Source of the DNA: Chlamydoabsidia padenii
Taxonomy: Eukaryota; Mucoromycota; Mucoromycetes; Mucorales; Cunninghamellaceae
Length of the DNA: 64,000 nt
Direction: 5' to 3'
Assembly: GCA_025330725.1 (NCBI GenBank)
Contig: JAIWND010000019.1
Span: 62,001-126,000 of the forward strand
The position numbers and the translations under genes are program-made. Shown piece by piece: positions 3,807 to 54,285 of the stretch. The notes under the pieces were generated by a model. It did no database searches. It saw only the letters and a list, made by a program, of their open reading frames with translations, and was not told the DNA's origin. The number at the start of each line of letters is the position of its first letter. Within the stretch, counting starts at the first letter, position 1.

Positions 3807-3817
3807 CGGGATTTGAA
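3807..3817 (+). promoter_or_regulatory. CGGGATTTGAA element, 104 bp upstream of SRA1
   Basis: Exact copy of the recurrent 11-mer; its function is unknown and inferred only from recurrence and position. Confidence 0.5.
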
Positions 3818-3996
3818 ATTGTAGAAGCTGACTATTACAAGGAAGAATGATTTCTGTTGGTCAAGATGTCATAAGCAATCATAACATGGCAGCTTGCTAG
3901 TGTAAAACCAAAAGAATTCATTTAAGCACCATTTTCAACATAAAAAACATATGTCTTTTTTGAAAGCACACTTTTATGCATACCAAAAAAAAGTTG

Positions 3997-4175
3997 TTGA
4001 TTGTCGAGTGATGGTGATTGTAGTGAAGAAAACAAAGAGAAGAGATGGAAACAGATCATACTAATGTACATATAGTTTTTTTACGCTTATTCGAAAGCTT
4101 TAATATTCAGGAGCTCAACTCGACAAATAAAAACAAAAAAGGGTCATTGATTGTCGAGTGATGCTGATTATAGTG
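3997..4175. repeat. 29-bp direct repeat pair, 150 bp apart
   Basis: Positions 3997-4025 and 4147-4175 share ttgattgtcgagtgatg followed by tgattgtagtg or tgattatagtg, with two mismatches in 29 bp. Both copies follow a short A-rich run, suggesting a decayed tandem duplication. Confidence 0.75.
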
Positions 4176-4271
4176 GTCTCAAAAGGAGAGTACGCATAGC
4201 CCCACACGGAATTTCGAGTAGTTTGATCGGGATTCAAATGCCGTGAAAATCATGCAGAGGGTTTACTTTTT

Positions 4272-4282
4272 TTCAAATCCCG
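4272..4282 (-). promoter_or_regulatory. CGGGATTTGAA element (minus orientation)
   Basis: Exact copy read as ttcaaatcccg on the plus strand, 569 bp upstream of SRA1 and 400 bp past the kinase stop. Confidence 0.45.
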
Positions 4283-4681
4283 TCCACAATTTTCAATCAG
4301 TGTAGATACAAAAAAGATCGAGATAGTAAGATAGTATCTATATTCAATGGACCTGGCAATATGATAGTTTGAAGTAAAGTTTATTTTGAGACGGAGGGTA
4401 GGTAGAAAGAAGATTGTTTATTAGATATAGTTAAGTATAAAAATGACAGACTGTATTTGTTAAAGATATGTATAAATGAGCAGAAGTTATAAAAACAATG
4501 ATAACAAGGGTAAAACCAGTGACTATAGCTAAAGAGGCTAACGGCTAATTTTTAATGACTATTCGCTAACATGGTGGCTGACATAGTATTGTTGTTGTCG
4601 GTGATGCCAAAAATAAAGAAGGCATGATTAATAAATAATAATAAAGTTAAATGTAGTATGCCGCTGAAGAATCCAATTCCA

Positions 4682-5217
4682 TCAAAAAGAATGATCCACT
4701 ACATCATTAACACCAGGGCTTGTTGTTGTAGCCAAAGAGACGCTAGTTAAGCCATTCGTGCTGGTAAACTTATCGTAAGGTTCTGTTGGTTCTGTCATTT
4801 CGACTGGTGTTGGTATTTTAGAGGTAATGTCTTCTAGTGGTAACCGGATAGTTGGTTTTGTTGTCATTGATGTTGGTAATATTGATGCTACGGGGACAGA
4901 GTTGTAGTATAGCTGCTGTTTGTGTTGAGGTCGTGGCGCAACTGGTGAAGAAGAAGGTGGATCCCTGGTCTTTTTTGAGTTTAGCGTCGGATTCAAATCA
5001 CGTAGGGTATACACCAGTTCCTTTGTATTGAGGGGTTTCGTCAAGTATCCATTCATTTTGGCATTCATGCATACGACCCTTGCAGACGCTTGGACATCGG
5101 CTGTCAAAGCAATAATAGGAAGATGCGCTGTATCAGTACCAGAAGACTCCAGAGCCCGGATCCGTTTCGTCGCCTCTACCCCATCACACTACAAAATGTA
5201 AATATGTATTTGTGAGT

Positions 5218-5265
<48 letters not shown>

Positions 5266-9157: not shown

Positions 9158-9241
<84 letters not shown>

Positions 9242-11817: not shown

Positions 11818-11865
<48 letters not shown>

Positions 11866-13131: not shown

Positions 13132-13477
13132 GGCAACCAAGATAATAGAAGCCAAAGAAAACTTGTTCTATTCAATGGCTTCAAGTGATTATTGGAAATA
13201 AAAGAAGAGAAGAAGAAAAGAAAAAAAAAAGACCGCTGTGCCCTTTTTAAAATTCGGAGTTTAAATCTAGTGAGAAACCGCTTGATCGCTTGGCCTGACC
13301 GATCCGATCGATGTCAGGAGATGGAGCAAATTGATATGATTACTATCTACCCCTTTTTGGTCACTATGAGACACACCGACACTACATAATACATCATTAT
13401 CATCATCACACATACACTATTTAAATATATATATATATACAAATCATACACCGCCATACCACAAAAAGATGTTTTTT
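13132..13477. other. Promoter region of the histidine kinase and 3' flank of the next gene
   Basis: 346 bp. On the sense strand of the kinase it holds a degenerate element (plus strand TTCGGAGTTTAAATC near 13253), then a pyrimidine tract (13199-13230 complement) leading to the start codon. A TA microsatellite lies at about 13425-13440. No gene is seen. Confidence 0.5.
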
Positions 13478-14161
13478 TTATTCCAAAGCATAACCATTAC
13501 TATTCCTAATTCTACTACTACTTCTACTACTACTATTATTATTATTATTACTGTTGATCCCAATGTTAGAGCCCGATAAATCATCGAGTATATCTGTTGT
13601 TTTAATTGTTGAGTAACCAATTTTCCTGTCACTACCTTGTTCCAAACCCTCTTGTTGTTTTTCCAATTGCCGTTCTTGTTGTATGCTACGTTGTCGCTTT
13701 AAGATATCCTGCTTCTTTTTGTTCTTCATCAAGTCCCTCCTACGTTTGCGTTCACTTGGAAGAATGCCGTGGTGATACTTGGTGTTAGTGTCTAGACATT
13801 GACTACGCCATAAGACATGTTCCTTTGACCAAAGTGGGGGATCTGTTTCACACACAACAGATTCGTGGATATAAAACGCCGTGGCCGCCCGTTGATAATC
13901 ACGGTCCAATTTGTCGTACCATAGTTCCAAAGCTTCCCACTGTTTCCGTGTCCAGGGTTGCAGAATATCGTCGTTATTCATAAATTGTGATGAGTTTTGA
14001 TCGTATAGAGAGATTTCGCTAGTTTGTCGACTAAGCAGAGGTTGTGTTTGTTGCCTTTGTAACGGTACTGGCGGTGGTGAGGAATTAGCTGCTGCATGAA
14101 GCTTTGGTGATGTCCGTTGTGTTTGAGTAAATAGTGAAGAATTCCGAGATGATATATTCAT
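13478..14161 (-). CDS. Unrecognised low-complexity fungal protein
   Basis: Single-exon frame of 227 residues. The start at 14161 was preferred over an in-frame upstream ATG at 14224, because the extra residues are encoded by leader-like sequence. The N-terminal third is Ser/Pro/Gln-rich and probably disordered. The centre has a tryptophan-rich segment, PWTRKQWEALELWYDKL, followed by AATAFYIHESVV and a second WSKEHVLW, reminiscent in spacing of Myb/SANT-like or other fungal W-motif domains. The C-terminal half is a basic, Gln/Glu-rich predicted coiled coil (ERKRRRDLMKNKKKQ onward) ending in Asn and Ser repeats. I do not recognise a family. It shares the 14162-14805 intergenic region with the divergent Rim15 gene, so both may be co-regulated. 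Confidence 0.7.
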   Translation of the reverse strand: MNISSRNSSLFTQTQRTSPKLHAAANSSPPPVPLQRQQTQPLLSRQTSEISLYDQNSSQFMNNDDILQPWTRKQWEALELWYDKLDRDYQRAATAFYIHESVVCETDPPLWSKEHVLWRSQCLDTNTKYHHGILPSERKRRRDLMKNKKKQDILKRQRSIQQERQLEKQQEGLEQGSDRKIGYSTIKTTDILDDLSGSNIGINSNNNNNSSSRSSSRIRNSNGYALE

Positions 14162-14805
14162 TTTGATATGGCAGTAAAGATGATGAAGAAAGTGTGGAAG
14201 AGTATGAGCGAAACAAACAAACAAAAAAAAAAAGCTTGCGTTCTATCAAAGGAAAATGATCGGCGTTTGAAAATTTCAAATTCTTATAAAAAGGAACAGC
14301 TTGTTCCCCTACCACTTTGGTTTCCAATGCCAGGCAACTACCAAAAGAATGACGACTCTTCGTTTTGATTGGAAGAAATAGTGATATAAAGTTAAGATGT
14401 TAAAGTAAAAGAATGTTCAATCTGAAAGCAAGAACTGGGAAATTGGTCCAAAATTCAAAGTGATGTCAGTTTTTGAGGCACATTTGTGTTAGTACTTTGT
14501 CTTACACCAACTAAAAAGCACATTGTATACTGTACTATCCGTTCAGCTAATACAAACTATGCTTTGCTAAGAATGTGTAAAGATAATGGGAAGGTATAAT
14601 GATATCATGTACTTTACAGTACAAGACAAAATTCGAGTTACCAAATTAGGTGGTCCGCATATCACCGCCGAACCAATCATTGAAAGTCAGCGCCTGACGC
14701 ATGTCCGCCAAATTTCATGTTCCCACTGATTTTCTCCTTTTTTTAATCGTCCTTCCTTTTTCTTCTCTCTCTCTTTTCCACTCACCCCTATTCAATGACA
14801 AACAT
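14162..14805. other. Divergent promoter region between unknown gene and RIM15
   Basis: 644 bp. Near 14265 lies a degenerate element (GGCGTTTGAAAATTTCAAA), about 100 bp before the minus-strand start. Near 14704 TCCGCCAAATTTCA is another distant relative. A pyrimidine-rich stretch (about 14728-14790) leads to the RIM15 start. In-frame ATG at 14701 would add 35 leader-like residues to Rim15 and was not used. Confidence 0.5.
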
Positions 14806-18525: not shown

Positions 18526-18556
<31 letters not shown>

Positions 18557-24332: not shown

Positions 24333-24470
24333 CATGATGAAAAGACTTCAGATTTTTTTTTTTTCAAACGTGAATATCTCCTTTTGTCGAGTACCTACAA
24401 AGGTCAGAGCTGGTGTGTCGAATCAAGAAATTCATGCAGAATTGGGTTTCAAAATTCAAAACCCGATTTC
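24333..24470 (+). repeat. Dispersed repeat, copy B
   Basis: Collinear with 21-165: identical 15-mer start, T-tract, aaacgt, tctcct and gaaattcatg blocks. It ends in an imperfect palindrome, GGGTTTCAAAATTCAAAACCC (24453-24473). Confidence 0.6.
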
Positions 24471-24511
24471 GACGGTGCAACTCATACTGTAGCTGTGCAT
24501 TGGTACCAAAC

Positions 24512-24562
24512 CGGGATTTGAATTCCGTAATTCAAGACCCGCCTGGTAGGTGGTGCATGAAT
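24512..24562 (+). promoter_or_regulatory. CGGGATTTGAA element paired with TGCATGAAT
   Basis: Exact 11-mer at 24512-24522 and TGCATGAAT at 24554-24562. It sits in a convergent gap. Confidence 0.45.
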
Positions 24563-25229: not shown

Positions 25230-25270
25230 CGGGATTTGAAATTAAACACCGCACGCACTTTTGCATGAAT
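25230..25270 (+). promoter_or_regulatory. CGGGATTTGAA element paired with TGCATGAAT
   Basis: Exact 11-mer at 25230-25240 and TGCATGAAT at 25262-25270, about 430 bp beyond the 3' end of the subtilisin gene. Confidence 0.45.
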
Positions 25271-25697: not shown

Positions 25698-27433
25698 TTA
25701 GTTGGAGGACTTGTTGGAGGTAGCTGTTTTGACCTTGGAGGCATCACTATAGGCAAGCAAGTTGACAGTTTTAGGTCGATTGTCTTTAATGACGTTTTTG
25801 GTACCCAGAGAAGTCAGGGCAGCAAACAAAGCCTTGGGAGTAGGATTATGCAAATCTTGAAGAATCAAAGCAGCAATACCAGTGAGGTGAGGAGCGGCCA
25901 TACTAGTTCCAGACATGATAGCAGTTGCATTCTTTCCACCAATGTAGTCACTTTCCACATTAATACCTAAAAATAAAGATAATGTTAGCCAATTTTGTTC
26001 GTTTGATTCGTCATGTCAAAAATACCTGGGGCAATAATGTCAACACATTTTCCGTAACAGCTTCTATAGTCCAAAGTATCCGTATTGTCCGATGCACCTA
26101 CAGTATAAACATTAGGATTACCAGCAGGCGTGACTTGACATGCATCGCTATTAGTGTAAAGTAAAGAGTTGGTTAGCATGTGGCGATTCTTATCAGTCAA
26201 TATACATACCTAGCCGAGTTTCCAGCAGCGACAATGATTGGCAATCCACTTTTGGCAGCAGCAGTGATAGCTTGATTCAAAGTATCAGCACCTGGAGCAA
26301 TAGAAGGAATACCAAGAGACATGTTGACAAGTGACTTTTTTGTGTGTTTCTTTGCATCCTTCACAACCCATTGAATACCAGTCAAAAGAGAGGATACCGT
26401 GCCTTGACCATTCTTGCCGAGGACTTGGACAGAGACAATAGTAGCATTCTTTGCCACTCCATATCGTTGACCAGCAATAATACCAGAAACATGAGTGCCT
26501 AATAATAAAAGAGATATAATCACTGAGCATTTTCTATCATTCCCCCTCTCCTTGTTATTTAGTACTTACCATGGCCACCACCAATCTTTGTAGTAGTATC
26601 GTTACCAATAGCTGAGAAACCCCAAGATACACGACCATTGAAATCTTGGTGATTCTTGTTGACACCATCGTCGATAACATAAACACGGACACCATGACTT
26701 TATGACAAAAAAGAAAATTGTTAATGTCCAAACAAGTCGAAGTTAATACTTTTTTCTTTTTCCTACTTACCCAGCGCTTTTAGGGTACAGATAAGGTGCT
26801 TTGAGATTGGCCTTGCGTTCACTTATACGTGCAAGATTCCAAGGAGCATTCTTTTGTTTGATAACTTGAGTTGTATGTTTTTTGGTGGTTTTGTCTGGCT
26901 GGTTGGCTGTGCGCTGTGATAATTATAAAGAAGAAAGTGTGAGTTTTTTTTTTGGATTCTCAGGAAAAGAGCGAAAATCGGGATTTGAAAATATCTATTT
27001 TTGGACTTACCATATAATAACGGCGGTGAAGGGAGCTTGGTTTGGGCAAATCAAATTGAATAACATCGTCAGGGACAATAGTTACAATATCATCAAAATG
27101 CTTCAACATGAAACCTAAAACACTCTCATCTGCAATCTTGGTGCTGATTGCCTTGAAAGAGCCATCAATGTCAAAAGTATCAAAGATATGAATCGGGTGG
27201 GTTCGCTTGTTTAAATGAGTTCCATCTTGCAATAATCCATCAGTACCACCAATCAGACCGCCAATTAAATCAAGGATACCTTTCAAGAGATCGGGAATGA
27301 AATCATCAATATCCGTAGTAGGTTTCAATTGGACGATATAATGTTGGTTTTTGCTGATGGTAGGTCGAGTGGCATTCACTAAAAGTGTAGTGTAAAAGAG
27401 GCAGAAAAGGAAGGAGAGGGGTTTAAAATACAT
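25698..27433 (-). CDS. Secreted subtilisin-like serine protease (S8, proteinase K type)
   Basis: Secreted endopeptidase of 457 residues. Exons: 27433-27011, 26913-26771, 26697-26570, 26498-26210, 26147-26026, 25966-25698; phases all agree. A hydrophobic signal peptide (MYFKPLSFLFCLFYTTLLVNA) precedes an I9-type inhibitor propeptide (HYIVQLKPTTDIDDF). The catalytic triad is visible as Asp in YVIDDGVN, His in GGHGTHVSG (created across an intron junction) and Ser in GTSMAAPH. IVAAGNSA gives the oxyanion-hole Asn. The propeptide is longer than in proteinase K because of an inserted Gly/Leu/Ile-rich stretch (LLKGILDLIGGLIGG). Intron 1 (26914-27010) contains an exact CGGGATTTGAA copy, and another element (CGGGATTTCAA) lies 199 bp upstream of the start. 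It probably serves nutrition or wall turnover outside the cell. Confidence 0.95.
26979..26989 (+). promoter_or_regulatory. CGGGATTTGAA element inside subtilisin intron 1
   Basis: Exact copy, the only one of the fifteen located inside a protein-coding transcription unit. Confidence 0.45.
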
Positions 27434-27631: not shown

Positions 27632-27642
27632 CGGGATTTCAA
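27632..27642 (+). promoter_or_regulatory. CGGGATTTCAA element upstream of subtilisin gene
   Basis: Exact copy of the C-variant, in reverse orientation relative to the gene. Confidence 0.45.
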
Positions 27643-28208: not shown

Positions 28209-28228
28209 CGGGATTTGAATTTCAATCC
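28209..28228 (+). promoter_or_regulatory. Double CGGGATTTGAA element, near-palindrome
   Basis: CGGGATTTGAA at 28209-28219 is followed directly by TTTCAATCCC, giving an imperfect inverted repeat. It is located 143 bp upstream of the CH-domain gene start. Confidence 0.5.
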
Positions 28229-28351
28229 CACTTTGACATGATGAAACGTGGATGTGTGTCCTTTTTCATTTTTTGTCTTTCTTTCCTCACTCTCTCTCTC
28301 TCTCTCTTTCTCTTTTTCCCTCTCTCTTCTAATTCACATTCCCTTTATCTA

Positions 28352-28832
28352 ATGTCTTACCATCCTTTTGATACCCCTCCTTTAGTGGAGAGCTCCACTG
28401 GAACTATGGATGAATCTTTACCAACACTACATGAAACGATTGTTGAAGAACCATTGTCTTTACATCAAGAACATCAGCTTCAACAACAACCGCAGTTTAC
28501 TTGGCGTCCTCAAAGTCCTTCTCCAGACAACATTATCCGGGCAGCAAGTCCAATGGGTCGTCGATATTTGAAACCTGTGAATGGAATCCAAATCAAAGGG
28601 TTTGCTCGATCAGGTAATTACTACATAGATTAGTTGCGAAAAGTACTCCAAATTAATCTACTTCTCCCCTTTGATCTCTCATGATTAGCTCAAAGAAGAT
28701 CCTCTGTTTTAACATTGGGAAGTATTGAACGTCTCCAGAACTTTTATGCCAAGAAGGACCTGGTCGTAAACAAGTAAGTTTTGGGTTGGGGAACACTCTT
28801 CATGGTACTAATATGAATACTTTATTTATTTA

Positions 28833-28867
<35 letters not shown>

Positions 28868-35246: not shown

Positions 35247-35257
35247 CGGGATTTGAA
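35247..35257 (+). promoter_or_regulatory. CGGGATTTGAA element 183 bp upstream of CSL gene
   Basis: Exact copy, reverse relative to the gene. Confidence 0.5.
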
Positions 35258-37864: not shown

Positions 37865-37904
<40 letters not shown>

Positions 37905-39612: not shown

Positions 39613-40784
39613 GTTGGCTTGATCTTGTTTTTGTAGTAGTAGTTGATGATAGTATGATTTGAATTTAGTTTAGCTGTTTTTTATTTTTATACTCATAATA
39701 AACAATCAAAAAGGGTTCTTCAAAAAAAAAAAAAATGCCTTGATGATATGAACTGGGACTATACTATACTGGGGAGGCAGGGTATTCACGATTCCCAATG
39801 AAATTTGTCTATGAAATGGTATTGATAAACTTTCTCACTTTTTCTCTTAGTGTCTATATCAAGAATATGGGAAAACGGGAAGAGCTCACATCAATGCAGA
39901 AAAAAAAAAGGCGGGGTTGAATTCAAATCCCGGCGGACCCCATTTTGCATTGACGATGCAAGTTGGTTATCAGCTTTCCTGATAAAGTGATAAGATAAAA
40001 AAAAAATACATATACATATTGGCTGTAGAATAATGGTATTCTATGAAAAGGGGTTTACTTGCAAAGGGAAGATGGGATATCCAGCATTGATTACACAAAT
40101 CCTAGGCCAAAAGGCTTGCCATATACATATCCTTCCAACTGGTATTCATCACCGCTTTTCTCTACAACTATAGAAAAGCCCTTTTGATTTGTTTTCTACA
40201 TTGGTTGTAGGAACGGCGTCATCGAAAAAGAATCAATTCCAATATAAGCTCTGCTGGGTCATGCGGCGGGGATTCAAATCATTGTTTTCTAAGCATCTCA
40301 TCAAAACCCCATGACATTTGTTCTTTATGAATAGAAGACACTTTTATTCGATTTCAAGCCAAATGACGTACCTCTTGACTATCATGAAAACAAGTTGTTT
40401 AAGATCATGCTTTCCATCACATGAAATAGCATGTTTAAAAATACATATCACTCAATATGAAAGGTCAGGGCCAAAAAAAAAAAAAAAAAAAAAGGATGTA
40501 CCCCTTTATTCTTGCCACAGGTGATCGAGCTCTTATTTTTGATCCATACAAATTCAAGTTGTTTTAAAACCTATAGTGATTGATGAAGATACTCTCATTT
40601 TATGTAGTTGAAGATCATGCCTCCACGTGAGTAGTATTTTGTTTCGAGAATCCACCTGTCGGGGTTTTAACTCAAATGACATAATGCCTTCTTTTGTGAT
40701 TTTTCCTTTTTCCTTTCCCTTTCTTCTTTTTCTTCTATTCCACTTTTTTTTTTATTTATTTACAACTTTTATCTTCTTCAAGTC
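39613..40784. other. Intergenic region upstream of the WOPR gene
   Basis: 1.17 kb with no intact gene. An exact element in minus orientation lies at 39922-39932, with variants near 40267 (GCGGGGATTCAAATC) and 40658 (TCGGGGTTTTAACTCAAAT, 127 bp before the ATG). A TC-rich leader follows. ATGCCTCCAC at 40618 followed by GTGAGT could be an alternative first coding exon of the WOPR gene. Confidence 0.5.
39922..39932 (-). promoter_or_regulatory. CGGGATTTGAA element (minus), flanked by GGCGG
   Basis: Plus strand reads ttcaaatcccg followed by gcgg. Confidence 0.45.
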
Positions 40785-42269: not shown

Positions 42270-42505
42270 CCTAGTTATAGCTTGACCCTTCTGTTATGTA
42301 GTCTTTTTATATTGTAATAAACATTATTATTATTTTTTAATTAATCGTTTGTGCCTATTTCCCGTGATGACTGGGATACATGGGTTTCACCAATTTGACA
42401 GGATGAGATGGTGAACACAGGCCAATCTCTTCCAAATGATCAAACCATCCCCCTAAATAATGATAAAAAAGACATGTGCTTTATTATGATAACAAGATGA
42501 TAAAA

Positions 42506-44163
42506 CTATACTAGACTATTATAGGATGCCGCTGCCAATTTCTGTTTCTTGTATTTGGTCAATATACTGCCATCCCCATCAGACGCACTTGTAACATGTA
42601 CCATCCGCCGTTTACGTTCTTCATCTTGAACGCGCCGAGCCCTACACAAAGGACAAACATGAGTATCACATCATCGTGGCGACAAAAAAAAAAAAAAAAA
42701 AAAAGAACTTACTTTTCTTTTTCTGACATGATGTTTCGTATTTCTGGATAAGTAGGAAGCATGGCAGGATCTTGTGCTACAATAAATAAAGAAAATGGAA
42801 TCAGAATAACTGCTCCCCCCCCACTTTTTTTTTTCCCCCACTTACCTCGAGGAGATTCTCTAAAGTATGGATGTTGTAAAGCCTGCCTAACATTGAGCCT
42901 AGATCGTGGGTTGTATGTGAGAAGACCTGCCAGCAGGTGGGTGGATTGATCCGATATTCTCGGGAAAGCCAACTTGAGAGTGTTTTTATCTTGTTTCGGC
43001 AATAAGAGAGCCTTTCCCAAAGGTAATTGTGTGAATCCAGGCCAGATAGTTTCGTTTGGTGTGCCGAGTAGTTTGACAATCAAATTCAGTTGTGTTTGTT
43101 CTGTTGTTCCTGGTAATAAAGGTCGATGTTGTAATAATTCACCCATGATACATCCTGCCGACCTAAAAAGAGAAAAGGTGAGATGGAGGGTCAAGTAGTA
43201 TGATATTATTTTATTACCATAAATCAACTGCAGTCGTATAATTAGCATCTCCATAGAGTAGTTCGGGTGATCGATACCATAGTGTCACCACATTAGGTGT
43301 CATTGGTTTACCAGGAAGACTGAGGGTACGGGCAAGTCCAAAATCCGCTATATATAAAAGGATTAAAATCATAGTCATCATAGGTAATCAATCATCTTAC
43401 CTATTTTAAGTAATCCAGTAGAAGTCAGTAGTAAGTTTGACATTTTCAAATCACTAGACAAATAAACCAGATATTAGTATATCATCATTCCCCCCCCCTC
43501 CCCATCTTTTTGTTTTCACTACTTACCGATGGATGATTGAATGAGCATGACAGTATTCCAATCCTTTCAATAATTGCATCATTAAGCATTTCACTACCCA
43601 CAAATCATAAAAGATACAATGAGCCAAGTTTTCCCCTCCCCCTACTTAGTTTCCTTGTACTACCTACCTTCAGAAGCAGTATAAGGTGTAGATATCATAT
43701 CCAGCAAAGTCCCCAAGTCTTGTTCACAATATTCCATTACCAAAAAGATCGATTCCAGTTTAGGTCCCACTGCAACATCAGAGACATTGACAATATTGGG
43801 ATGTCGCATTCGTTTCAATAGACTGATTTCCCTTAAACTGGAAATGGGCATGCCATCCGTTTCCCGTTCCATTCTTATCTTTTTCAACGCCACCACAGCA
43901 CCCGTCTTGGTATCCTTGACTCGACTTTATATATATATATATATATAACACGTGATTAGTGTATTGTTGTTTCGAGGGTTTACTACTTACTAGACGACCC
44001 CATAAGTGCCTTCGCCCACCCGATTAAGTTTTTCAAAGTCTTCCACATCACGACAATCGCCATAGAATGGATGTGTTTCAGAGTATTTGACTTGTTTTTT
44101 ACGAACGGAGGTTAGCACCGAATGTGATTGTTCACCTTTGGTGTTGGTGGTATGATTGGCCAT
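42506..44163 (-). CDS. CDK10: Cyclin-dependent kinase 10 homolog
   Basis: Nuclear CMGC kinase of 398 residues. Exons: 44163-43991, 43924-43668, 43593-43527, 43453-43401, 43347-43218, 43162-42846, 42776-42713, 42641-42506; phases agree. Features: [22 protein letters not shown] (Gly loop), VALKKIRM with the catalytic Lys, [18 protein letters not shown] (PSTAIRE-like cyclin helix of the CDK10/CDK11 type), [54 protein letters not shown] and [13 protein letters not shown]. The match is closer to CDK10 than CDK11 because of [17 protein letters not shown] and the short C-terminus. All catalytic residues are present. CDK10 orthologs bind cyclin M in animals; the partner here is unknown. The basic tail (ERKRRRM, YKKQK) may be nuclear targeting. 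An element variant (TCGGAATTTTAAA) lies 86 bp upstream, followed by a T17 leader. Confidence 0.94.
42684..42704. repeat. Poly(A) tract, 21 nt, in CDK10 last intron
   Basis: A run on the plus strand, inside the intron 42642-42712. Confidence 0.9.
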
Positions 44164-44397
44164 GATCAAGATAAAAAGTGGTGTTTGGGAAGAAGAATGA
44201 GGATTCGTAGAAGGCAGAAAAAAAAAAAAAAAAAAGTTGACCAAACGTCGGAATTTTAAAACACAAGGAGTGCCATGGAGGATGAAGAACAAAAGTCGAC
44301 TTTATTATAGATTTACAAATCAAAAAGATAAATAAGGGAATGCATATAGATAAATGTAGTTGTATTAAAAGAGAGAGAGAGAGAGGAATTTGTGTTA

Positions 44398-45455
44398 TTA
44401 TTCCGTATTCGATGGCACCTTGAGACGCTTTTCGAGATCCTCCGCCAGTTGATCGATTTCCTTGTCTTCAGTTTCCTTGTTTCCAGTTTCTTTTTGAGGG
44501 GTATGAGTGTCTTCATCTGCTTGATTCTCTTCGTATTCCTGTTGCTCTGCCGCCCATCGTTCCTTCAGTTTCTTGGTTTCCTTTTCATGGAGCCTGTCCA
44601 GCTCGTCCTAGAAGAAGAAGAATGATCATGAGTAAATATATAACACAGCAGTAACATACCTTCCATCCCAGTAAATCAGCCAATTTTTCAATCCCTTCAT
44701 CACAGTCGCCCAAGATAACGGCATCACGTTTTTTGCCATATTTCCATTTAAAGTCAAACCCATGATGTGGTGAATGGTGCTAACAAAACAAAGAGGGGAG
44801 GTGCCTGTTAGTTTCATCCAAGTATTTGATTTTTGATTTTTTGATGTTTCTTACCACACCAGCAATATCTTTATTGATCAATAACCTAGGTGTATAATCT
44901 GGTACGTTATCGATGAGAGCAGCAAAAGGTTGTACCTGAAGACTTGTACCAATCACTATTAACAGATCAGCTTCATCAAAATCCTATATACGTATACATA
45001 TCAGTTAGTCCCCCCTATTGCTTTTTTTTTATATTACCCATTCCTTTTACTTACACGAAGACGTTTAAAAAAAACGCTTGGGTAAACTTTCACCAAAAAA
45101 GGTGATATCAGGCTTGATGAGACCATCTTTACAAACAGGGCACCGAGGAATACGAGACTGTAAGATTTCCCTTTTGACGATTTCCATATCCGCCTTTTCT
45201 TCACATTCAGTACATGAAGCCGTGGCAAAACTTCCATGGGCTTCCACAATCTTGTCCTCGTCCAATCCACATATCCGTTCCAGAGTATCAATGTTTTGTG
45301 TAAAGTTTCGCAAGAGCATCTTTTTTTCGTGAAGTAGTCGAATAAAGTAGTGGGTTTTGGTGGGATAGTATTTACCGGGGTAGAGTTCTTTGGCCAATGC
45401 ATAGAAGGGTTCAGGTCGTTCCTACATTTACATGTATATAAAAGGTGAGGTGTCA

Positions 45456-45486
<31 letters not shown>

Positions 45487-45823
45487 GAGGAGATTGGTTT
45501 TACCTCAAAGTAGTCAATATCAAATATTGCTTCGGCATAAGGTAGATCAAACTTTTGTAGGTTGTCATAAAGTCCAGTGTCCTTACTTCTAAAGTCAGGG
45601 ATGCCCGCCGCTGTTGAGATGCCTGCACCCGACATTACAATAATGTTTTTGACTGGTAGAAAGAAAAAAAAAAAAAAAGAAAGAACTATGTTAGATCAGT
45701 TTACAGACTTTTTTCTTTCTTACCATCATTGTTTTTGATATAGTTTGCAATGGATTCTACTGTAGAGCTTTCCAATTTGGCAGCCTCGATTTTCGCTTTG
45801 ACTTTTGATCTTGTTGCCGCCAT
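44398..45823 (-). CDS. HST2: Sir2-family deacetylase (Hst2/SIRT2 type) with apparent frameshift
   Basis: NAD-dependent protein deacetylase, about 357 residues if the frame is continuous. Exons: 45823-45724, 45652-45504, 45421-45055, 44983-44855, 44779-44660, 44607-44398. Motifs: [17 protein letters not shown] (NAD binding), [27 protein letters not shown] with the catalytic His, zinc ligands CTEC and [16 protein letters not shown], and [12 protein letters not shown]. The C-terminus is acidic and coiled-coil-like. Exon 3 is 367 nt, one more than phase requires: an eight-T run (eight A at 45067-45074) makes SLPKRFF run into a stop, while seven T would read FFKRLR and join the next exon (DFDEADLL) in frame. 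Either an assembly homopolymer error or a real inactivating insertion; both flanks are well conserved. Intron 2 carries a GT repeat. Confidence 0.88.
45456..45483. repeat. GT dinucleotide repeat in sirtuin intron 2
   Basis: About 13 GT units. Confidence 0.95.
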
Positions 45824-46704
45824 GTGAATAAAGAGGGAAGAGCAAGGAAACAGAAAAAAAAAAAAAAAAAAGCGATCGCTCGCTTTACAAAATTTAGACC
45901 GCCGGAATTTGAATTTGAATTTCACAAAAGAGGTTCTTCTTTGGGTGGTTTGCTCTTTCAAAGGCAAAACAAGCTCTCATGAGATTAGAGTATACATCCA
46001 CTCACAAGTATGTTGTAACCAAAGGTCTTTTCATCTCACCACTCAAGATCAGCATACGACTACTGTGCAAGGAAACTCTGCCCCTGGAACTGGCGGGATT
46101 TCAAACCAAACATTGAAGTCCCCGCCCATTAACAATGCAGTGACAGAGAAGCAACTTGTTTATCATACATCATCCAGTCAAACGAAACGTAAACTAAAAA
46201 AGGATTCAAGATGATGTCAAGCTTACATCACTATCAGTAGAGTCCTGTGGATCCCAAAAAAGGAAAGACATGGGGTGAGGAGAGTGAAGACAAAAAAAAA
46301 ATTTTTATCGTCAAGGGGACTTCCACATAGTCACATTGTTGAAACTCCATTCGCACACTTAAAAGGACGGTTCGAGTGCCATCTTCTCTTTTTTTTTCTT
46401 TATTCGATCAAAATAAACCACTTGTGGCTAGAGCGTTTGATCTTGCTTTTTATTCAATAAGAGCAATGTAGCTCTGTCTGTCACATCAGATTGATGTTTA
46501 ACCAATGTATCTACCAAGTGATTATTTTCAATTGATCACAAGGCTCGTAATTTTGGTTTACAGCTCTATATCTATATAAACAAAATGAAAATGAAAATAA
46601 AGCCCATCATCGTTTATAAAACAACTTTTTTTTATTTATTTAAACATACAAAGAGGAGGGGAGGGGGAAGTATCTATGGCTATATGTAAGGAGGGGAATG
46701 ATCA
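45824..46704. other. Promoter region of the sirtuin and 3' flank of the GH85 gene
   Basis: 881 bp. Close to the sirtuin start are a CCGGAATTTGAATTTGAATTT variant (about 45903) and a T-rich leader. An exact CGGGATTTCAA lies at 46094-46104. No gene is recognised. Confidence 0.5.
46094..46104 (+). promoter_or_regulatory. CGGGATTTCAA element, preceded by GG
   Basis: Exact C-variant copy, 271 bp upstream of the sirtuin start. Confidence 0.45.
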
Positions 46705-49472
46705 TCAAGTGTAATAAACTATACTGGGTAAATCTATGGTATGTGTTGATTGAAGTCGGCCAAGGTTATCCACCATTTTGATCTTGATTAGTTTGCGACA
46801 AGAGGCATCCGTAGTTAAATCCACCCCAGATATCCTAAACAAGGACGAAAACGAGGTACCAAGGAAGATATCGTCATCGCTGGCTTTAGTTGATGTTAGG
46901 TACACTAGAGCATAATTAGTTCTACACCAATCAGGTATATCTTGTTGTCGTTCAAGTTGATGTTCCGGTATTTCGTCGCCCTTCCTGTTGTTTTTCCAAT
47001 GCCAATCAAGAGTGCCCCAAAAAGTAAGCTTTTGATGATTCCTGTCGTCGTCCTTCCCAGTCTGTTCCCAACGGATGTTTCCCCAGTCGAACCGTCGAGT
47101 CTCGTTTTCGTCGATCGCCATAGGAGCAATACTGACCAAGCCAATACGTACCAAATCAATCTTGTTTGTGTGATCCTTTCCAGGTGGTTGTTCCGAGATG
47201 ATGGCGACCATGAATCCAAGCTGATCAATCGTCCTTTTAGCATAGTTTTCGGTTGTTATGAATTCAAAGTTGATCTTTTGTAGCATCCATCCATTATTCA
47301 TAGCTTCTGTTGTTGTTTTTGTGATATGAAGTCCATCCTTGCCATTGTTGTTTCTACCATCAGTGCAATCAATATGATGTAAATCTTGTGTTTCAGTAGA
47401 ATCAGTAGCCACAATGTGTTCGCGTAGGACGCATTTTAAAGTGTGATCATATTTAGCAGCTTCCGGCATCGGCTTGTACGCATAGCATAGTTGGTATATC
47501 AAAGATGGATCGATATCGAGTGAGAGGTTATATAACATAGCAGAGGATGTCGCAGTATGGGTATCACCTCCTTTGTAGATTGGGTGTGGCGGATAGCATT
47601 GTAGTATGAGAGAGGATCCACCATTATAAGCATCCGTTCCATCCATTTTGGTGAGATTAGTCAAGTTGGCGGGAATACTTTGGTGAGAGAGATGTGACCA
47701 AGGCTCATTTAACAATTCCTACACATGGAGACAAAGTCGCGATTAGTAGTTGCAGTCTCCCCCCTTTTTTTTTCTTTGATTACCTTTCCATGAAGATAAA
47801 ACTTGGTACCATAGCCACGATCAAAACAAGATGCAAACCAGTTAGTACCAGGGGAAGGTTGTTTTGTTTCCCCGGCACCAGGATGATAACCGTGAGGTAC
47901 AAGATCCACCGCTTCATCCTTTTGATGACCGAGTTCAGTTTTTGAAGGAGGGAATTCCGAGGGTTTGCCACCTTTCCAAAATAGACGGTCCATAAGATCA
48001 AAGTTTTGCTTGTTAAAATGTTCATAAGTCCAAGCCATACCAAACAAGGCTGCTGATGCGCCTCCTTTTGACGAATCTTCAACGCCCTACCGGAGAATAG
48101 AATGGTAAGTAGAAGGATCAAAAAAAGGGGGGTACCGAGTTTTATTACCTTGTAAGAGTTGAATTCTCCACCGCCATGAGTTCCTCGGCCCCAAACATCC
48201 GTGCCAAAGTAAACATCAGTTCCACGTCGGCCTATAAGAAAGGAAAAAGAAAGAGAGATTAGTAAGTGTTCAAGTCGAAGAAATATTTTCTTGTCATCTT
48301 ACCCACACTTTCTGCCAGTTCAGATGCTTTCTTGGGATAATCATCCTATACGTAAATTGGTAATTAGTATAATAGTTTACATGGAATCCGACATTCCACA
48401 GATTGTCTTTACCCTCCACCAGTAGTTCAAGAAGATCCCATCAGTCACTTTGAAGAAGGGCAAATTATCTTCAGTCAGTTGATTTTGCCAGTCGATAATA
48501 CCGTCCCTGGTGAGACTGTCGTACCATAAAAGTGTTGATCCAGGTATTTCTTCATGTAATTTGGTCCTGAAGTAATTGAGGAAACTAACCCCCCCCCAAA
48601 AAAAAAGAGATGATTAGTTGTTTTGAACCTTTTTTGTTTTGTTTTGTATTACCATGTTAATTGTTGAGCTTTCTCTTGTACAGGAGTGGGGAAAGGCATG
48701 AATGAGCATTCGATATTCATCAGCCATCCATCAAAGCCATAATGTTTTGCAATAGCCACTAACCCAATAAAAAGATTAAGTTTCGGTTTTAAAGTTTCGT
48801 CTCCAGCCATATCTTACCCAATTTGTCCGCATAATAAGGATTCCAGAGTCGCATTGGGTCCTTGTCACCTAGCACAGGAGCATCCGGAGGTCCTTGAAGT
48901 AGCATTTCGAGTTCACCCATTTGATCGCCTTCTACAATAAAAGTTCCAAGGCAAACAACTCCATTTCGATGACAAGTATTGATCCAGTTTACAGGAGGGA
49001 TTGTTACGCGTTCATGAGAGAAACTATTGTACATAAAAAATCAAGACAAGTTAGCATCAATATTGTGTTAACGGTATTATCCTTGGTTGTTGTTATTGTA
49101 TTGTTAACTTACTAGATAAATGAGTCCACGTATTCCCAGTATTGTATGTTGTATATTGTATCATAGTTGTTTCCTTGGATCCACAAGTCTTCTTTGTATC
49201 CACCTATTTTACACAAATTGAAGATGAGGTTAATGAAACTACAATATGATAGTATTAATGCTAATCAACTTACCAGCCATATCATGACATAAGAGAAGTC
49301 TTGGACCTTGTGTGCCACGAGTTACTGGACGTGAATGTAACTTGGTGGAGGCAATGTTGGCCACATCTTGTGCTTGGTTTGCATCCCATTCTTTCAACTG
49401 CTTCATGGAAGACAAAGGTTTGGAAACAGGAAGGTGGACATCTTTATCCTGTTGAAGTTGACGTGACGGCAT
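46705..49472 (-). CDS. Cytosolic endo-beta-N-acetylglucosaminidase (GH85)
   Basis: Hydrolyses the chitobiose core of N-glycans, typically free glycans from misfolded glycoproteins in the cytosol. 738 residues. Exons: 49472-49274, 49203-49113, 49023-48818, 48758-48653, 48584-48413, 48345-48303, 48231-48149, 48086-47784, 47718-46705; phases agree. The GH85 barrel reads LLCHDMAGGYKEDLW, IQYWEYVDSFIYFSHERVTIPP, HRNGVVCLGTFIVEG and FDGWLMNIECSF; the Asn and Glu of NIE are the catalytic pair. Further blocks are TLLWYDSLT, GIFLNYWW and RGTDVYFGTDVWGRG. The last large exon encodes beta-sandwich modules. The start at 49472 suits a cytosolic enzyme; an in-frame upstream ATG at 49559 would add 29 residues with a hydrophobic stretch. 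One element variant (TCGGGAATTCAAT) lies about 80 bp upstream of the chosen start. Confidence 0.94.
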
Positions 49473-49639
49473 GACAGCAATATAAATAAAAAGTAAAAGA
49501 AGAAGAAAAAGAGGGGGAAGAGTGACAAAATTAATATAAAAGACCCGTCGGGAATTCAATCGATCCGATAGGCTGATGGTTATCGTTTTTATTAAGTGGT
49601 ATTACATGCATACAAACTATTCTAAACCAATCAACTATA

Positions 49640-49795: not shown

Positions 49796-50348
49796 GGTTA
49801 TAGATCTAGAATATACTATACAGAAGGAATAATCAAGTTAGTGAGCAAGTGTTTTTAAAGTTGAGTGACCTACTTGAGGGAGCTTTGTAGAATTGTCAGC
49901 GTGAGGCACCAGATAATGATTGATAGCTTGTTGGGGTGACCATAGTGGATTGGATAATGTTCAAAGTGGAAACAAGAGAGGAGGACTTCATTTCCCCCCC
50001 CTCTCTCTCTCTTGAAACTTTCAAATGGCGGTATTTGAATCTTGCAGTGACCGGAAAAGGAGGCAGGCTGTCAGGTACCAGCATTTCAAAATGGCGGGAT
50101 TTGAAAAAATGCGGGGTACGCGATTTCTGCATAAATGAAGATTACGATAACAGATGCAATATATAAGAAAAGAGAACATCATTGTCTACAAAAAGAATCA
50201 ATCTTTATTTAAATCAATATAAGAGAAAAGACTTTAATCATAAAAACTCTTATTGATTGTTAGAATGGAAAGAGGGAGAAGAAGTTACACTGGGGGATGA
50301 TCACGATTTTTTTTTTCTGATTTCATTTTCTAATGATTTTTTGGCCAA
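49796..50348. other. Leader/promoter of the small ORF and 3' flank of GH134
   Basis: Contains a CT-rich stretch (49995-50015), element copies at about 50034 (GCGGTATTTGAATC) and 50095-50105 (exact), each preceded by AATGG/AAATGG, giving two tandem AATGGCGGxATTTGAA units about 60 bp apart. Confidence 0.5.
50095..50105 (+). promoter_or_regulatory. CGGGATTTGAA element
   Basis: Exact copy, 300 bp upstream of the small ORF; part of a tandem pair with the variant near 50034. Confidence 0.45.
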
Positions 50349-50903
50349 TTAGATGGGAGTAACGTTTACCCAGCATCTGGTATCATCATACATGTATTGG
50401 TTGTTGTTAGCAGTAATTTGATCTTGAATCCAGTAAACACCGTTCTTGTAAGTATTAATATCGTCTGTGTATGGGTTGTTCACACCAGATTCACCGTCTC
50501 TGTGTCCACCGAACCATTTGTCGATACCATAGTAGTTTTGAGAATCTTGACGCGCATGGATATCATCCCACAAGTTGCTGTTAAGAACAGCACCATTGTT
50601 CCATTCATCGGTTGTTTGACCTTTGAATTGACTAGTAGAAGTTCGAAGCATAAACCAGTTTTGCTTGAAAATACCAAAATTTGCGGAATCGTAGGTTTTA
50701 CCATCACCATAATTGTAGTCAGTACCCATATCATTAGTTTCCAACATGGCAATAGCAAGTTCTAAAGTGCCACCACCATTGTTCAACACTGCCTGCTTCT
50801 TTTGCCCATAATTTGGGATAGTATAACATCCACGGTCATCACCCATCACAGCGGTGGAGGCAAGGAAGAGAACGGCAAAGTAGCTGAAGATCTTGATAGT
50901 CAT
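50349..50903 (-). CDS. Secreted GH134 endo-beta-1,4-mannanase
   Basis: Single-exon gene of 184 residues. A signal peptide (MTIKIFSYFAVLFLASTAVMG) precedes a mature domain with the GH134 signature: YTIPNYGQKKQAVLNNGG, LELAIAMLETNDMGTDY, YGDGKTYDSANFGIFKQNW, AVLNSNLWDDIHARQDSQ, YGIDKWFGGHRDGESG and YTDDINTYKNGVYWIQDQI. The Glu of AMLET and the Asp of DSANFGIF region are the likely acid and base of this lysozyme-like inverting family, which includes enzymes from Aspergillus nidulans and Rhizopus microsporus. The length is typical. A TATAAAAA box (50969-50976) lies about 65 bp upstream of the ATG. It acts on mannan outside the cell. Confidence 0.93.
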   Translation of the reverse strand: MTIKIFSYFAVLFLASTAVMGDDRGCYTIPNYGQKKQAVLNNGGGTLELAIAMLETNDMGTDYNYGDGKTYDSANFGIFKQNWFMLRTSTSQFKGQTTDEWNNGAVLNSNLWDDIHARQDSQNYYGIDKWFGGHRDGESGVNNPYTDDINTYKNGVYWIQDQITANNNQYMYDDTRCWVNVTPI

Positions 50904-50968
50904 TTTGATATTGTTGTAGTTGTTTGTTGTGTTAATGATAGGCAAAAGAGAGAGGTTGGTTCGCGCAC

Positions 50969-50976
50969 TTTTTATA
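50969..50976 (-). promoter_or_regulatory. TATA box of the GH134 gene
   Basis: TATAAAAA on the minus strand, 66 bp before the start codon. Confidence 0.6.
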
Positions 50977-51137
50977 TCATTTTCGATCAAGCCAAATTCA
51001 TGCATCAGTGTCGGAGTGTGAGAAATTATCTTATTTCCTCTGTACACGACGGGAAGAAACAAATTACTTTCATTGTATCTGGGAGTGCGCCCATCAGACC
51101 CATATCTTTTCTTTTTTCCAAAAAAGGATGATTTATT

Positions 51138-51148
51138 TGAAATCCCGA
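51138..51148 (-). promoter_or_regulatory. CGGGATTTCAA element 235 bp upstream of GH134
   Basis: Exact C-variant; plus strand ttgaaatcccg. Confidence 0.45.
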
Positions 51149-51599: not shown

Positions 51600-51610
51600 C
51601 GGGATTTGAA
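51600..51610 (+). promoter_or_regulatory. CGGGATTTGAA element
   Basis: Exact copy about 700 bp upstream of GH134. Confidence 0.4.
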
Positions 51611-52254
51611 ATCGAAAAAGGGGTTCCTGATACTACAACATTCTAGTCTAGTTGCACAATATACTATCGCTCGGTTAATGTTCCTGATAACTGGAAAAGC
51701 AGATAACATGTGGCAGGAAAGTAAATTGAGACGGGGTTCAGATGGGAGGGGGATGTAGATGGTGAAAAATAAAAATGACCCGTGCTCCCCTGAGACAGCA
51801 CATCCTGTTTATGTGAGAGGAAAAAAAAAAAAAAGTACACAAGGTCAATCGAAACCCCATGTACGATATCCAAAGATGCATTCCGAGTCTTTCAATTATA
51901 CAGTAAATCCCAGTCCGGCGGTATACTTTGGGTAACATAAAGCCAAAAACATGGCACCGTCCACATTTAATAGGCAAATTATAATGTCAATTTAAAGAAT
52001 GTTTTATTGAGGGAAAATTGTACAATGGTAGGGGTAAATCTATTGTGTATCTACTTTAACATAAAAACTAAGCTAAAGAAGAGGTAGTATGGTCTATGTT
52101 TAGTGAATGGAGGGGGAGGGGAGCATAGAGTATGTATGCTAGAGAGATAAGGATGAAGTCGGTAATGTTGTATTATGGTGAGATGTAGACCGTCATGTGC
52201 CATAATCGCTTTCACGGATCCAACCCATAATGATCTGAATTCCTATTTTCAGCG

Positions 52255-53015
52255 CTACGGTGTAATTGTTGATGCATATGTCTTGTACCCACTAATGATA
52301 TCACCAGGGGCAGCCGATAGGACTAGCAAGAGCAAAAATAAACCACCAGGACACCACATGTGGCAAATAAGGTATCCAACCAGAGAAGACACCAGAGGTA
52401 TATCGTCCATGAGTATTTCATTTTAAAGATAGAAAAGCAAGTATCACTTTCCCCCTCCCCTTCAAACGACATTTTGGTGGGTTGTTGTATGTAAGTTCTA
52501 AATAGTAATATACATGTTTCCAGTTAGACGTTGTGCCATCTTTTTGAGACAGTCAGTTTGTTGCTACTTACCCTGAGAGTCATCTTGATAGAATATTCAT
52601 AGAGTCACCTAGCATTCCAACGTCATCAATGTTTTAAAACGTTTAGACTACTTTGTTTACCTAATTAAATCCATGTTGATCCGAGTGAGAGTTGAATCAA
52701 CATTTCCATCACAAGAGGGACAAAAGTTGATGTTTGAGGGATTGAAGGATTGGATAAAAGTCTTTAAGAGAGTTAGTTGAGCTAATTAACAATAGGTATC
52801 TGCTATTAAACTTACATTTCCAAGGTATAATTAAAGAGTTCAAAAGTTCTCCAATGAATATCTGCTTCCATTATACGGGACTTGATAGCAGAACACATAT
52901 ACACCAATTGTTGGCATGGTAGAGTTGGCAAAGCAAAACAGAAAGAAGAAGGAAAAAAAAAAATCGATTCTCTATTTAGAAATCGTTGAAGCCTGACCGA
53001 GCGGAGTTTTTGCAT
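52255..53015 (-). other. Unresolved, possibly spliced or decayed minus-strand gene
   Basis: Three minus-strand blocks look coding but do not join in one frame. Block 1 (52812-52896) reads MCSAIKSRIMEADIHWRTFE and ends at a good GTAAGT donor. Block 2 (about 52667-52766) begins after a CTAAC branch and AAAG acceptor and reads, in the frame that stays open, FIQSFNPSNINFCPSCDGN, with a CxxC pair, but this frame is not in phase with block 1. Block 3 (52255-52410) is a 51-codon frame starting MDDIPLVSSLVGYLIC with one predicted membrane segment. A spliced small gene, a decayed gene or chance are all possible. Confidence 0.25.
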
Positions 53016-53160
53016 GAGCTTAATTCAAGTTGACATGCACAATTCCTTTAAACCCCTCTCTTTCACTAGACTCATCTCCTTGCAGGTAACGTCAACAACA
53101 GAAATGACAGACGGACAAGATACGAACGATATCATACATCGACAAATGGGCATAGATAAA

Positions 53161-53189
53161 TGGATGGATGGATGGATGGATGGATGGAT
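53161..53189 (+). repeat. TGGA tetranucleotide repeat
   Basis: About seven TGGA units in the RPL15 upstream region. Confidence 0.95.
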
Positions 53190-53321
53190 GTTTTGGTGTA
53201 TTGAACGACCAAACCAGCCGATTGATGTTGGAGTTCGATTCTGAAATTACCATGAATTGTCAATTTGAAGGATGGTTTAACTAACTCTTTGATTTATATT
53301 ATCATATCATAGGGTTAAAAC

Positions 53322-54060
53322 ATGGGTGCCTACAAATATCTCGAAGAATTACAAAAGAAGAAGCAATCGGATGTCCTCCGTTTCTTGCTCCGTGTCCGCT
53401 GTTGGGAATACAGGTATGTACTTGCCCCTTAACTCACTTGCCATCATTCATCTTTATAGACACCATCCGTCCGTCCTGACTCTCACCTACAATACACCAA
53501 CTCACTCTATCTTTTTTTTTATATTATGCATCTATAGACAATTGAATGTCATCCACCGTGCCTCTCGTCCTTCTCGCCCTGACAAGGCTCGTCGTCTCGG
53601 ATACAAGGCCAAGCAAGGATTTGTGATCTACCGTGTCCGTGTCCGTCGTGGTGGCCGTAAGCGACCTGTCCACAAGGGTGCTACCTTTGGCAAACCTGTC
53701 AACGAAGGTGTAAACCAACTCAAGTACCAACGCTCTCTCCAATCCACTGCCGAAGAACGTGTGGGTCGCAAGTGTGCCAACCTCCGTGTCCTCAACTCTT
53801 ACTGGATCAACCAAGATGCTACCTACAAGTACTTTGAAGTCATCCTCGTCGATCCCTCCCACAAGGCTATCCGTCGCGATCCCCGTATCAACTGGATCGT
53901 CAATGCCGTCCACAAGCGTCGTGAAGCCCGTGGTCTTACTGCCATCGGTAAGAAGTCTCGTGGTAAGGGTAAGGGTCATCTCTTCACTAAGACCCGTGGA
54001 TCCGGTCGTCATGCCAGCTGGAAACGTCGCAACACCCTCTCTCTCCGTCGTTACCGTTAA
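53322..54060 (+). CDS. RPL15: 60S ribosomal protein L15 (eL15)
   Basis: Large-subunit ribosomal protein, 204 residues, exactly the usual length. Exons 53322-53413 and 53538-54060, joined within the Arg codon of [11 protein letters not shown]. The protein opens [20 protein letters not shown] and contains [83 protein letters not shown] and ends in [12 protein letters not shown]-rich codon choice marks high expression, as in RPL16. The region just before the ATG ends in ATCATAG, an acceptor-like string, so a 5' UTR intron is possible. A degenerate element (GAGCGGAGTTTTTGCATGAG) lies about 315 bp upstream. AATAAA occurs at about 54137. Confidence 0.97.
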
Positions 54061-54257
54061 ATCGCTCCTTGAATGGGGTCGACTTTGGGTTTGCTTCTTC
54101 CACTAGTTTTAGTATGTTTTTTAAATGGTTATACTCAAATAAAGGATGTGCTTTTTTATGATTTGTGTCTTTTGGTTGGGTGATTATTTTCGAGGTTTAA
54201 ATATTTATGCGCATTGTTATGGGGAAGGGGGTGGTGGTTTTTTGGAAACCAGGATTT

Positions 54258-54285
54258 CGGGATTTCAACTACTTTTGAAATCCCG
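54258..54285. promoter_or_regulatory. Perfect inverted repeat of the CGGGATTTCAA element
   Basis: CGGGATTTCAA (54258-54268) and its exact reverse complement TTGAAATCCCG (54275-54285) are separated by six bases. They lie 157-184 bp upstream of the SPC3 start and about 200 bp after the RPL15 stop. The arrangement suggests a dimeric binding site or a terminator-like hairpin. Confidence 0.6.

Follow-up and report, generated by a model that had tools for sequence, protein, structure and literature searches.

A candidate orientation-independent promoter element upstream of protein-coding and tRNA genes in the fungus Chlamydoabsidia padenii

Introduction

In a stretch of 64,000 nucleotides from the Mucorales fungus Chlamydoabsidia padenii (GenBank assembly GCA_025330725.1, contig JAIWND010000019.1, positions 62,001 to 126,000 of the forward strand; hereafter the window), a preliminary description noted a recurrent 11-mer, CGGGATTTGAA (G form), and its variant CGGGATTTCAA (C form). 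Several described systems come close to the element to which these words belong. In flies, the housekeeping promoter elements DRE (DNA replication-related element) and motif 1 are abundant near many promoters, including those of divergent gene pairs. The budding-yeast factor Reb1 recognizes CGGGTAA, which has CGGG in common with the element described here. The human proximal sequence element (PSE) lies at −55, and PSEs are directional. The B-box inside tRNA genes has the consensus GGTTCRANNCC, with a G before TTC and an invariant C, and the consensus for E2F is TTTSSCGC. To our knowledge, little has been published on promoter marks in early-diverging fungi.

General regulatory factors (GRFs) such as Reb1 may take part in forming nucleosome-depleted regions, according to the available text of PMC7466152. 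LIN54, which reads the cell cycle genes homology region (CHR), requires TTYRAA, and in many promoters bound by the DREAM complex a cell cycle-dependent element (CDE) lies four bases upstream of the CHR, although this arrangement is not obligatory; both statements come from the accessible portion of PMC4974476. Here we describe the abundance, shape and position of the C. padenii element and weigh what it may be.

Results

Abundance and shape of the motif

The window contained ten exact matches to CGGGATTTGAA on both strands, where dinucleotide shuffling predicted 0.03, and five to CGGGATTTCAA, where 0.05 were expected. Neither observed count was reached in any of 100 window shuffles. All ten G-form sites stood at the positions reported in the preliminary description. 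The five C-form sites were also present, although one of them starts at 51137 rather than at 51138. In the whole genome (34.2 Mb, 95 contigs), the G form occurred 3,811 times (1902 and 1909 on the two strands), compared with two occurrences of the reversed word (one on each strand). A chance origin of the word was rejected on the basis of the shuffles and these genome counts.

For further analysis, the window was joined by 250 kb drawn from five additional contigs, mainly contig 1 (200 kb), giving 314 kb in all. In this DNA, CGGGATTTGAA was the 11-mer with the largest excess over its expected count, above trinucleotide repeats, when words with fewer than three different letters were left out. 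Expectation-maximization yielded the degenerate 15-mer RKCGGRNTTTNAAWW, in which CGG, TT and AA are near-invariant, with a few tolerant positions between them. Conservation stops two or three bases past the core, and the flanks are unconserved. This 15-mer was found 5,894 times genome-wide (2966 and 2928 on the two strands) and 25 times when reversed (12 and 13). A score above 12 bits was reached at 223 places in the 314 kb, compared with 14 in an order-3 Markov control. The window alone had 38 such sites, so the preliminary description, whose exact counts were right, had put the total too low; extrapolation suggests ~20,000 sites in the genome.

Inverted motif pairs exist (e.g. 54258/54275), and the spacing between neighboring sites is loose, which gives no support to a hairpin or an obligate dimer. 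An explanation of the word by adenine methylation was rejected, as the A-T step of the motif is not constant; the string 'CGGG' does not appear in the available text of a paper on N6-methyladenine in Mucorales (PMC11258239). In the open-licence literature, none of the matches listed gave the word as a motif or reported the element.

Some similar flank was present inside the 314 kb for 48 of the 223 sites. We dropped 30 sites as repeat-borne, in which the similar stretch spans the site, and kept 193 for the location counts below. Some of these 30 belong to a tandem array with 240-bp units, demonstrated at locus L015. Fourteen flanks from the window, which cover all 15 exact sites (two of them overlap), were queried against the whole genome and returned 14 matches, each only to itself; the search tool ignores very frequent words and computes scores for its best candidates only. 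For one of the 14, at 24512, contig 4 has a 71%-similar counterpart of the sequence beside the site, but not of the site itself. As the window flanks tested matched only themselves and the flanks are unconserved, the element is not a transposon or a short interspersed nuclear element (SINE), and the earlier suggestion of SINE or tRNA relics was not borne out.

Position relative to protein-coding genes

Genes were modeled with a splice-aware hidden Markov model (HMM) trained on the 314 kb itself, which gave 139 genes with predicted starts, a median intron of 74 bp and the donor GTAAGT. Pfam recognized eight of nine tested gene models, plus one raw frame. Measured against these models, the density of the 193 sites was 1.86 per kb in intergenic DNA, 0.21 per kb in introns and 0.08 per kb in coding DNA. 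The 52 exact G-form sites of the 314 kb comprised 48 intergenic, three intronic and one coding, and the 12 exact C-form sites comprised ten, one and one, respectively. As already noticed in the preliminary description, no exact site of the window (0 of 15) fell in predicted coding DNA, and one, at 26979, fell in a predicted intron.

Site density peaked 50–200 bp before ATGs and dipped just past stops. Among 106 complete genes of at least 100 amino acids, 93 had a site in the upstream gap (reckoned up to the neighboring gene or, failing one, the piece end); in 63 the nearest site lay at 50–200 bp. When repeats were included, a site above 12 bits was present within 300 bp in 70 of the 106 upstream stretches, but in only 34 of the 106 downstream stretches. 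Below a gap length of 600 bp, and with two gaps of ≤20 bp set aside, a site was found in 29 of 37 divergent and tandem gaps and in 2 of 17 convergent gaps (Fisher P = 5 × 10−6). The near-matches previously listed ahead of several gene starts are real, and they are general beyond those genes. Of the three outcomes named in the preliminary description as speaking against it (no enrichment across the genome, equal density in exons, one longer transposon consensus behind all copies), none was observed.

Orientation, divergent gaps and the pyrimidine tract

Both orientations were used equally at promoters: 29:29 over 58 single-gene sites, a count that excludes seven sites common to two genes, and 36:36 over all 72 gene-site pairs. 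Because strand use is symmetric, an RNA-level role of the word was ruled out. Divergent gaps of 171–259 bp had exactly one site in eight of nine cases, located 71–149 bp from both ATGs (P = 5 × 10−4 against intergenic density), whereas none of ten convergent gaps of ≤435 bp had a site (P = 1 × 10−4 for the comparison with the divergent gaps).

When 65 promoters were aligned on the motif, the pyrimidine fraction remained at ~0.55 up to +39, and then reached 0.72 at +40 and 0.84 at +50. In the 53 promoters with an unshared site, this rise was equally distant in both orientations (0.73 and 0.83 versus 0.72 and 0.86). Alignment on the ATG gave a slower rise than alignment on the site. A clear tract was present in 59 of the 65 promoters, where the tract start was less variably spaced from the site (standard deviation 22.6) than the ATG was (33.6). 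The tract may serve as a proxy for the start of transcription by RNA polymerase II (Pol II). TATA words at +10 to +19 numbered seven in the 65 Pol II promoters.

Position relative to tRNA genes

ARAGORN detected no tRNA in the window or in the additional 250 kb, and Rfam gave no match in the 314 kb. From 1,723 tRNA candidates in the genome, 63 were scored by Rfam search, and 20 of these, chosen irrespective of the motif, were read. Ten of the 20 had a site above 11 bits whose 15-mer starts at −62 to −57, with its centre at −50 to −55, and lowering the threshold to 8 bits raised the number with a site in −62 to −57 to 12. Three of the ten sites pointed in the direction of the gene and seven in the opposite direction. 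At the intergenic rate, ten of 20 has P ~1 × 10−13; when four upstream flanks judged by eye to be related were counted once, the result was 7 of 17 (P = 3 × 10−9). Of the 20 genes, 17 had TATATA in the interval from −45 to −20. B-boxes lay inside the gene, separate from the motif, and a strict pattern recovered them in 15 of the 20. The connection with tRNA genes drawn in the preliminary description holds as a fixed upstream place outside the genes, but not as a B-box. In 12 of the 20, a variant of the motif scoring >10 bits also started 22–27 bp past the gene end; 11 of these variants pointed in the gene direction.

CACGTG occurred upstream of five of the 20 tRNA genes. In the three without the motif (L047, L058 and L059), CACGTG takes roughly the place that the motif has in other tRNA genes (starts at −66 and −51, −58, −59), and in L046 and L048 it stands just above the motif (starts at −71 and −66). 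It seems as if the factors for CACGTG and for the CGG motif were interchangeable at tRNA genes.

Other features of these genes (L040 to L059) were also noted. They have a strongly conserved TATA box resembling TGCTTTATATA at about −38 to −28, with CCAAT further up in some. The genome count of GCTTTATATA was 266, versus 77 for its reverse. By eye, different tRNA genes had common sequence in the 3' flank (L047, L054 and L056; L053 and L057) or in the 5' flank (L045, L049, L050 and L057), a pattern that points to flank duplication or to mobile elements targeting tRNA genes.

Sites in the window and repeats elsewhere

The sites of the window and their surroundings are listed in Table 1. By Pfam, the CSL/RBPJ-type gene at 31199-35064 has BTD and TIG domains.

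Table 1. Motif sites in the window and the predicted genes next to them
Position	Strand	Site and surroundings	Source
1162..1176	+	Element 130 bp 5' of ATG of ribosomal L13-family gene (1299-2353)	motif scan
3807..3817	+	Exact 11-mer 109 bp 5' of ATG of gene 2841-3703 (-)	
4272..4282	-	Exact 11-mer, intergenic	
14259..14273	+	Element 105 bp 5' of ATG of gene 13347-14161 (-)	motif scan
24453..24543		Three clustered elements (24453-, 24510+ with exact 11-mer at 24512, 24529-) in 2-kb convergent gap	
25230..25240	+	Exact 11-mer, same 2-kb convergent gap as the cluster at 24453..24543	
26979..26989	+	Exact 11-mer in predicted intron of subtilase gene 25698-27433	
27632..27642	+	C-variant 204 bp 5' of ATG of subtilase gene 25698-27433 (-)	
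28209..28219	+	Exact 11-mer 24 bp 5' of predicted ATG of gene 28238-30309; start may be misplaced	
35247..35257	+	Exact 11-mer 188 bp 5' of predicted ATG of CSL/RBPJ-type gene 31199-35064 (-)	
39922..39932	-	Exact 11-mer, intergenic, 858 bp 5' of Gti1/Pac2 (WOPR) gene	
40658..40672	+	Element 120 bp 5' of ATG of Gti1/Pac2 (WOPR) gene 40785-42269	
44247..44261	+	Element 91 bp 5' of ATG of protein kinase gene 42506-44163 (-)	
45901..45915	+	Element 85 bp 5' of ATG of sirtuin gene 44398-45823 (-)	
46094..46104	+	C-variant 276 bp 5' of ATG of sirtuin gene 44398-45823	
49547..49561	+	Element 82 bp 5' of ATG of gene 46705-49472 (-)	motif scan
50095..50105	+	Exact 11-mer, intergenic	
51137..51147	-	C-variant 137 bp 5' of ATG of GH134 gene 50349-51005 (-)	
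51600..51610	+	Exact 11-mer, intergenic	
54258..54285		Inverted C-variant pair 162-179 bp 5' of signal-peptidase-subunit gene 54442-55410	
60279..60293	+	Lone element in 231-bp divergent gap (60155-60387), 131 and 101 bp from two ATGs	

Outside the window, the 240-bp tandem repeat at L015:2760-3693 has 3.9 copies with one AGCGGGTTTTGAAAT per unit, and an Rfam search of this repeat gave no match. Related sequence was seen near C1 27.2 and 46.0 kb, in L027 and in L029, and motif pairs 237–240 bp apart also occur elsewhere on contig 1. Contig 1 further contains an inverted duplication, ~77–90% identical (L009 ~9.4–10.0 kb and L017 ~3.7–4.5 kb), inside which motif copies recur.

Discussion

A probable general promoter element

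RKCGGRNTTTNAAWW is probably an orientation-independent, GRF-like promoter element common to the genes of Pol II and of RNA polymerase III (Pol III). Its abundance, its shape, its restriction to intergenic DNA, its position at promoters, its strand symmetry, the central site of divergent gaps and the fixed position at tRNA genes were all observed directly. Two properties by which GRF sites can be recognized were also found. The element is enriched in intergenic promoter regions (1.86 versus 0.08 per kb in coding DNA; 93 of 106 genes), and, judged by position, it stands in either orientation near predicted starts (29:29; eight of nine divergent gaps). The preliminary description had proposed a binding site. 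A sharp 15-bp motif with position-specific tolerance, unconserved flanks, intergenic restriction and promoter position make a binding site well supported at the sequence level, although the binders named at the time, discussed below, are not.

Protein binding, chromatin opening or placing of the initiation complex by the element would be the next step of the argument. We propose that RKCGGRNTTTNAAWW is a double-stranded DNA element that may be bound by one abundant, sequence-specific protein. This protein would be a general promoter factor resembling the GRFs, and the element would be active in either orientation. A single bound site would open a start region ~50 bp off, on one or both sides, either by opening chromatin or by aiding the placing of the initiation complex. 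In this way the element would serve most Pol II genes, and it would act over the same ~50-bp distance at many tRNA genes, where it would lie upstream of the TATA box and where CACGTG might substitute for it in some cases. A more far-reaching version holds that this one element fixes the start regions of both polymerases ~50 bp off, that a central copy drives divergent pairs, and that perhaps a SNAPc-type or domesticated factor reads it. We regard this as possible and put it forward tentatively. We know of no described fungal counterpart of a promoter architecture shared by two polymerases.

Several points weigh against a promoter element. No site above 10 bits was found within 300 bp in 31 of the 106 promoters. 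These promoters are nominally enriched in AAGGTAA (10 of 31 versus 6 of 75; uncorrected P = 0.003), and the resemblance of this word to a splice donor suggests introns in the 5' untranslated region (5'-UTR) or wrong predicted starts. The 154 intergenic sites flanked by genes on either side (16 of the 170, at the ends of pieces, were omitted) fell into 64 promoter-proximal sites (mean score 17.5), 62 distal sites (17.9) and 28 sites within convergent gaps (18.1), and more than half are therefore not promoter-proximal. As the distal and convergent-gap sites score equally or slightly higher, promoter placing may not be the sole role. Most exact G-form 11-mers of the window lie in the long convergent gap or have the predicted ATG 400–2,000 bp away. 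Sites of these kinds could stem from introns in the 5'-UTR, from non-coding transcripts or from a second role of the element. In addition, the gene starts are HMM predictions made without RNA data and with 5'-UTR introns outside the model, and the location counts rest on 0.9% of the genome. The limit of 435 bp for convergent gaps was chosen post hoc, and the next gap (436 bp) has a weak, 12.9-bit site. Likewise, the tRNA positions tested were picked after inspection.

Alternative explanations

The element could instead be an extension of the PSE or upstream sequence element (USE) from small nuclear RNA (snRNA) genes to tRNA and mRNA promoters, read by the snRNA-activating protein complex (SNAPc) or a similar complex. 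A fixed place above a TATA box, as seen at the tRNA genes (10 of 20, with TATATA in 17 of 20), is what SNAPc would need, and one element stands at both Pol II and Pol III genes. A SNAPC3-family gene is also present, as two adjacent matches, one of them read through a stop. However, the element occurs in both orientations (three and seven at tRNA genes, 29:29 at Pol II genes), a single site is placed between two divergent genes, the seven TATA words at +10 to +19 are few for 65 Pol II promoters, and the DNA read contains no snRNA gene (no Rfam match in 314 kb). We therefore consider this explanation unlikely.

It is similarly improbable, and slightly more so, that the element is an insulator or an architectural site bounding transcription units and lies close to promoters only as a consequence. 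Copies both upstream (10 of 20) and downstream (12 of 20) of tRNA genes, together with the distal and convergent-gap sites (62 and 28 of 154), would suit such a role. The short convergent gaps, however, have no site (0 of 10), and a pyrimidine tract ~50 bp from the site is more in keeping with a promoter role. As the SNAPc and insulator explanations overlap with a GRF-like promoter element, the probabilities need not sum to one.

The preliminary description had offered two identities for the binder. One was a CHR/CDE element read by a DREAM-like complex of LIN54 and E2F, which we judge very unlikely. A TTTGAA half is present in 82 of the 193 sites, and the genome has six E2F/DP domain matches, but the TTYRAA core is found in only 110 of the 193, GGCGG-N4-TTTGAA is absent from the 314 kb (versus 11 occurrences with N2), and the E2F core TTTSSCGC lies inside none of the 193 15-mers. 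The element is also too widespread for cell-cycle genes alone and occurs at tRNA genes. A domain search of the genome for LIN9 (DIRP) and the LIN54 CXC domain gave no match, a weak result given that control genomes were equally silent. Three of the six E2F/DP matches are short and three are longer, and the longer ones may be DP-like, judging by their length.

The other identity, in which the complement TTCAAATCCCG is read as a B-box, making the copies TFIIIC or extra TFIIIC (ETC) sites or tRNA-derived relics, is more improbable still. The complement does resemble the tRNA T-arm, and a small number of the 3,811 copies could be genuine B-boxes. Two weak B-block_TFIIIC matches in the genome are of little value, as this family also matches 4 of 14 prokaryote controls. 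Only 5 of the 193 sites have the B-box G before TTC, and the base equivalent to the B-box C is the most tolerant of the second half (0.62). Moreover, tRNA genes have their own B-boxes inside and the motif outside, and the window contains no tRNA or Rfam match. Least credible of all is a dispersed short transposon or satellite spreading the word, since, despite the 30 of 223 sites in sequence repeated inside the 314 kb and the 240-bp array at L015 with its one motif copy per unit, all 14 window flanks match only themselves at the sensitivity of the search tool and conservation fades two or three bases beyond the core.

If a GRF-like promoter element is indeed what we have found, it would give a fungal group a nearly universal promoter code open to direct testing, in which one upstream element seems to be used, at equal distance, by Pol II and Pol III genes. 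It would also offer a handle for synthetic promoters, and the single central site between two genes suits experiment.

Comparison with known systems

The complement of the word, TTCAAATCCCG, recalls the tRNA B-box and ETC sites, but the element is without the defining G, tolerant at the B-box C and outside tRNA genes. It resembles CHR and CDE-CHR sites (LIN54, E2F-DP) in having a TTTGAA half beside a G+C-rich half. Unlike in CDE-CHR sites, TTYRAA is dispensable, the spacing is two rather than four, there is no E2F core, and the element stands near most genes. Compared with DRE and motif 1 of flies, the pattern of abundance is the same, the word and lineage are unrelated, and use by Pol III genes is added.

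With the PSE/USE of snRNA genes (SNAPc), the element shares an upstream place above TATA and use at both Pol II and Pol III genes, but it is free in orientation and located at mRNA and tRNA genes. By eye, its word differs from that of the plant USE, RTCCCACATCG in the accessible part of the source. The layout at tRNA genes resembles type 3 Pol III promoters as described in the available text of PMC9845283, although the element is not directional.

The nearest functional analogue is the GRF site of budding yeast (Reb1, Abf1, Rap1). The C. padenii element differs from these sites in its word, in its tighter ~50-bp offset and in its presence at tRNA genes. Like the GRF sites described in the portion of PMC7466152 available, it is short, sequence-specific, intergenic and close upstream of starts at many genes.

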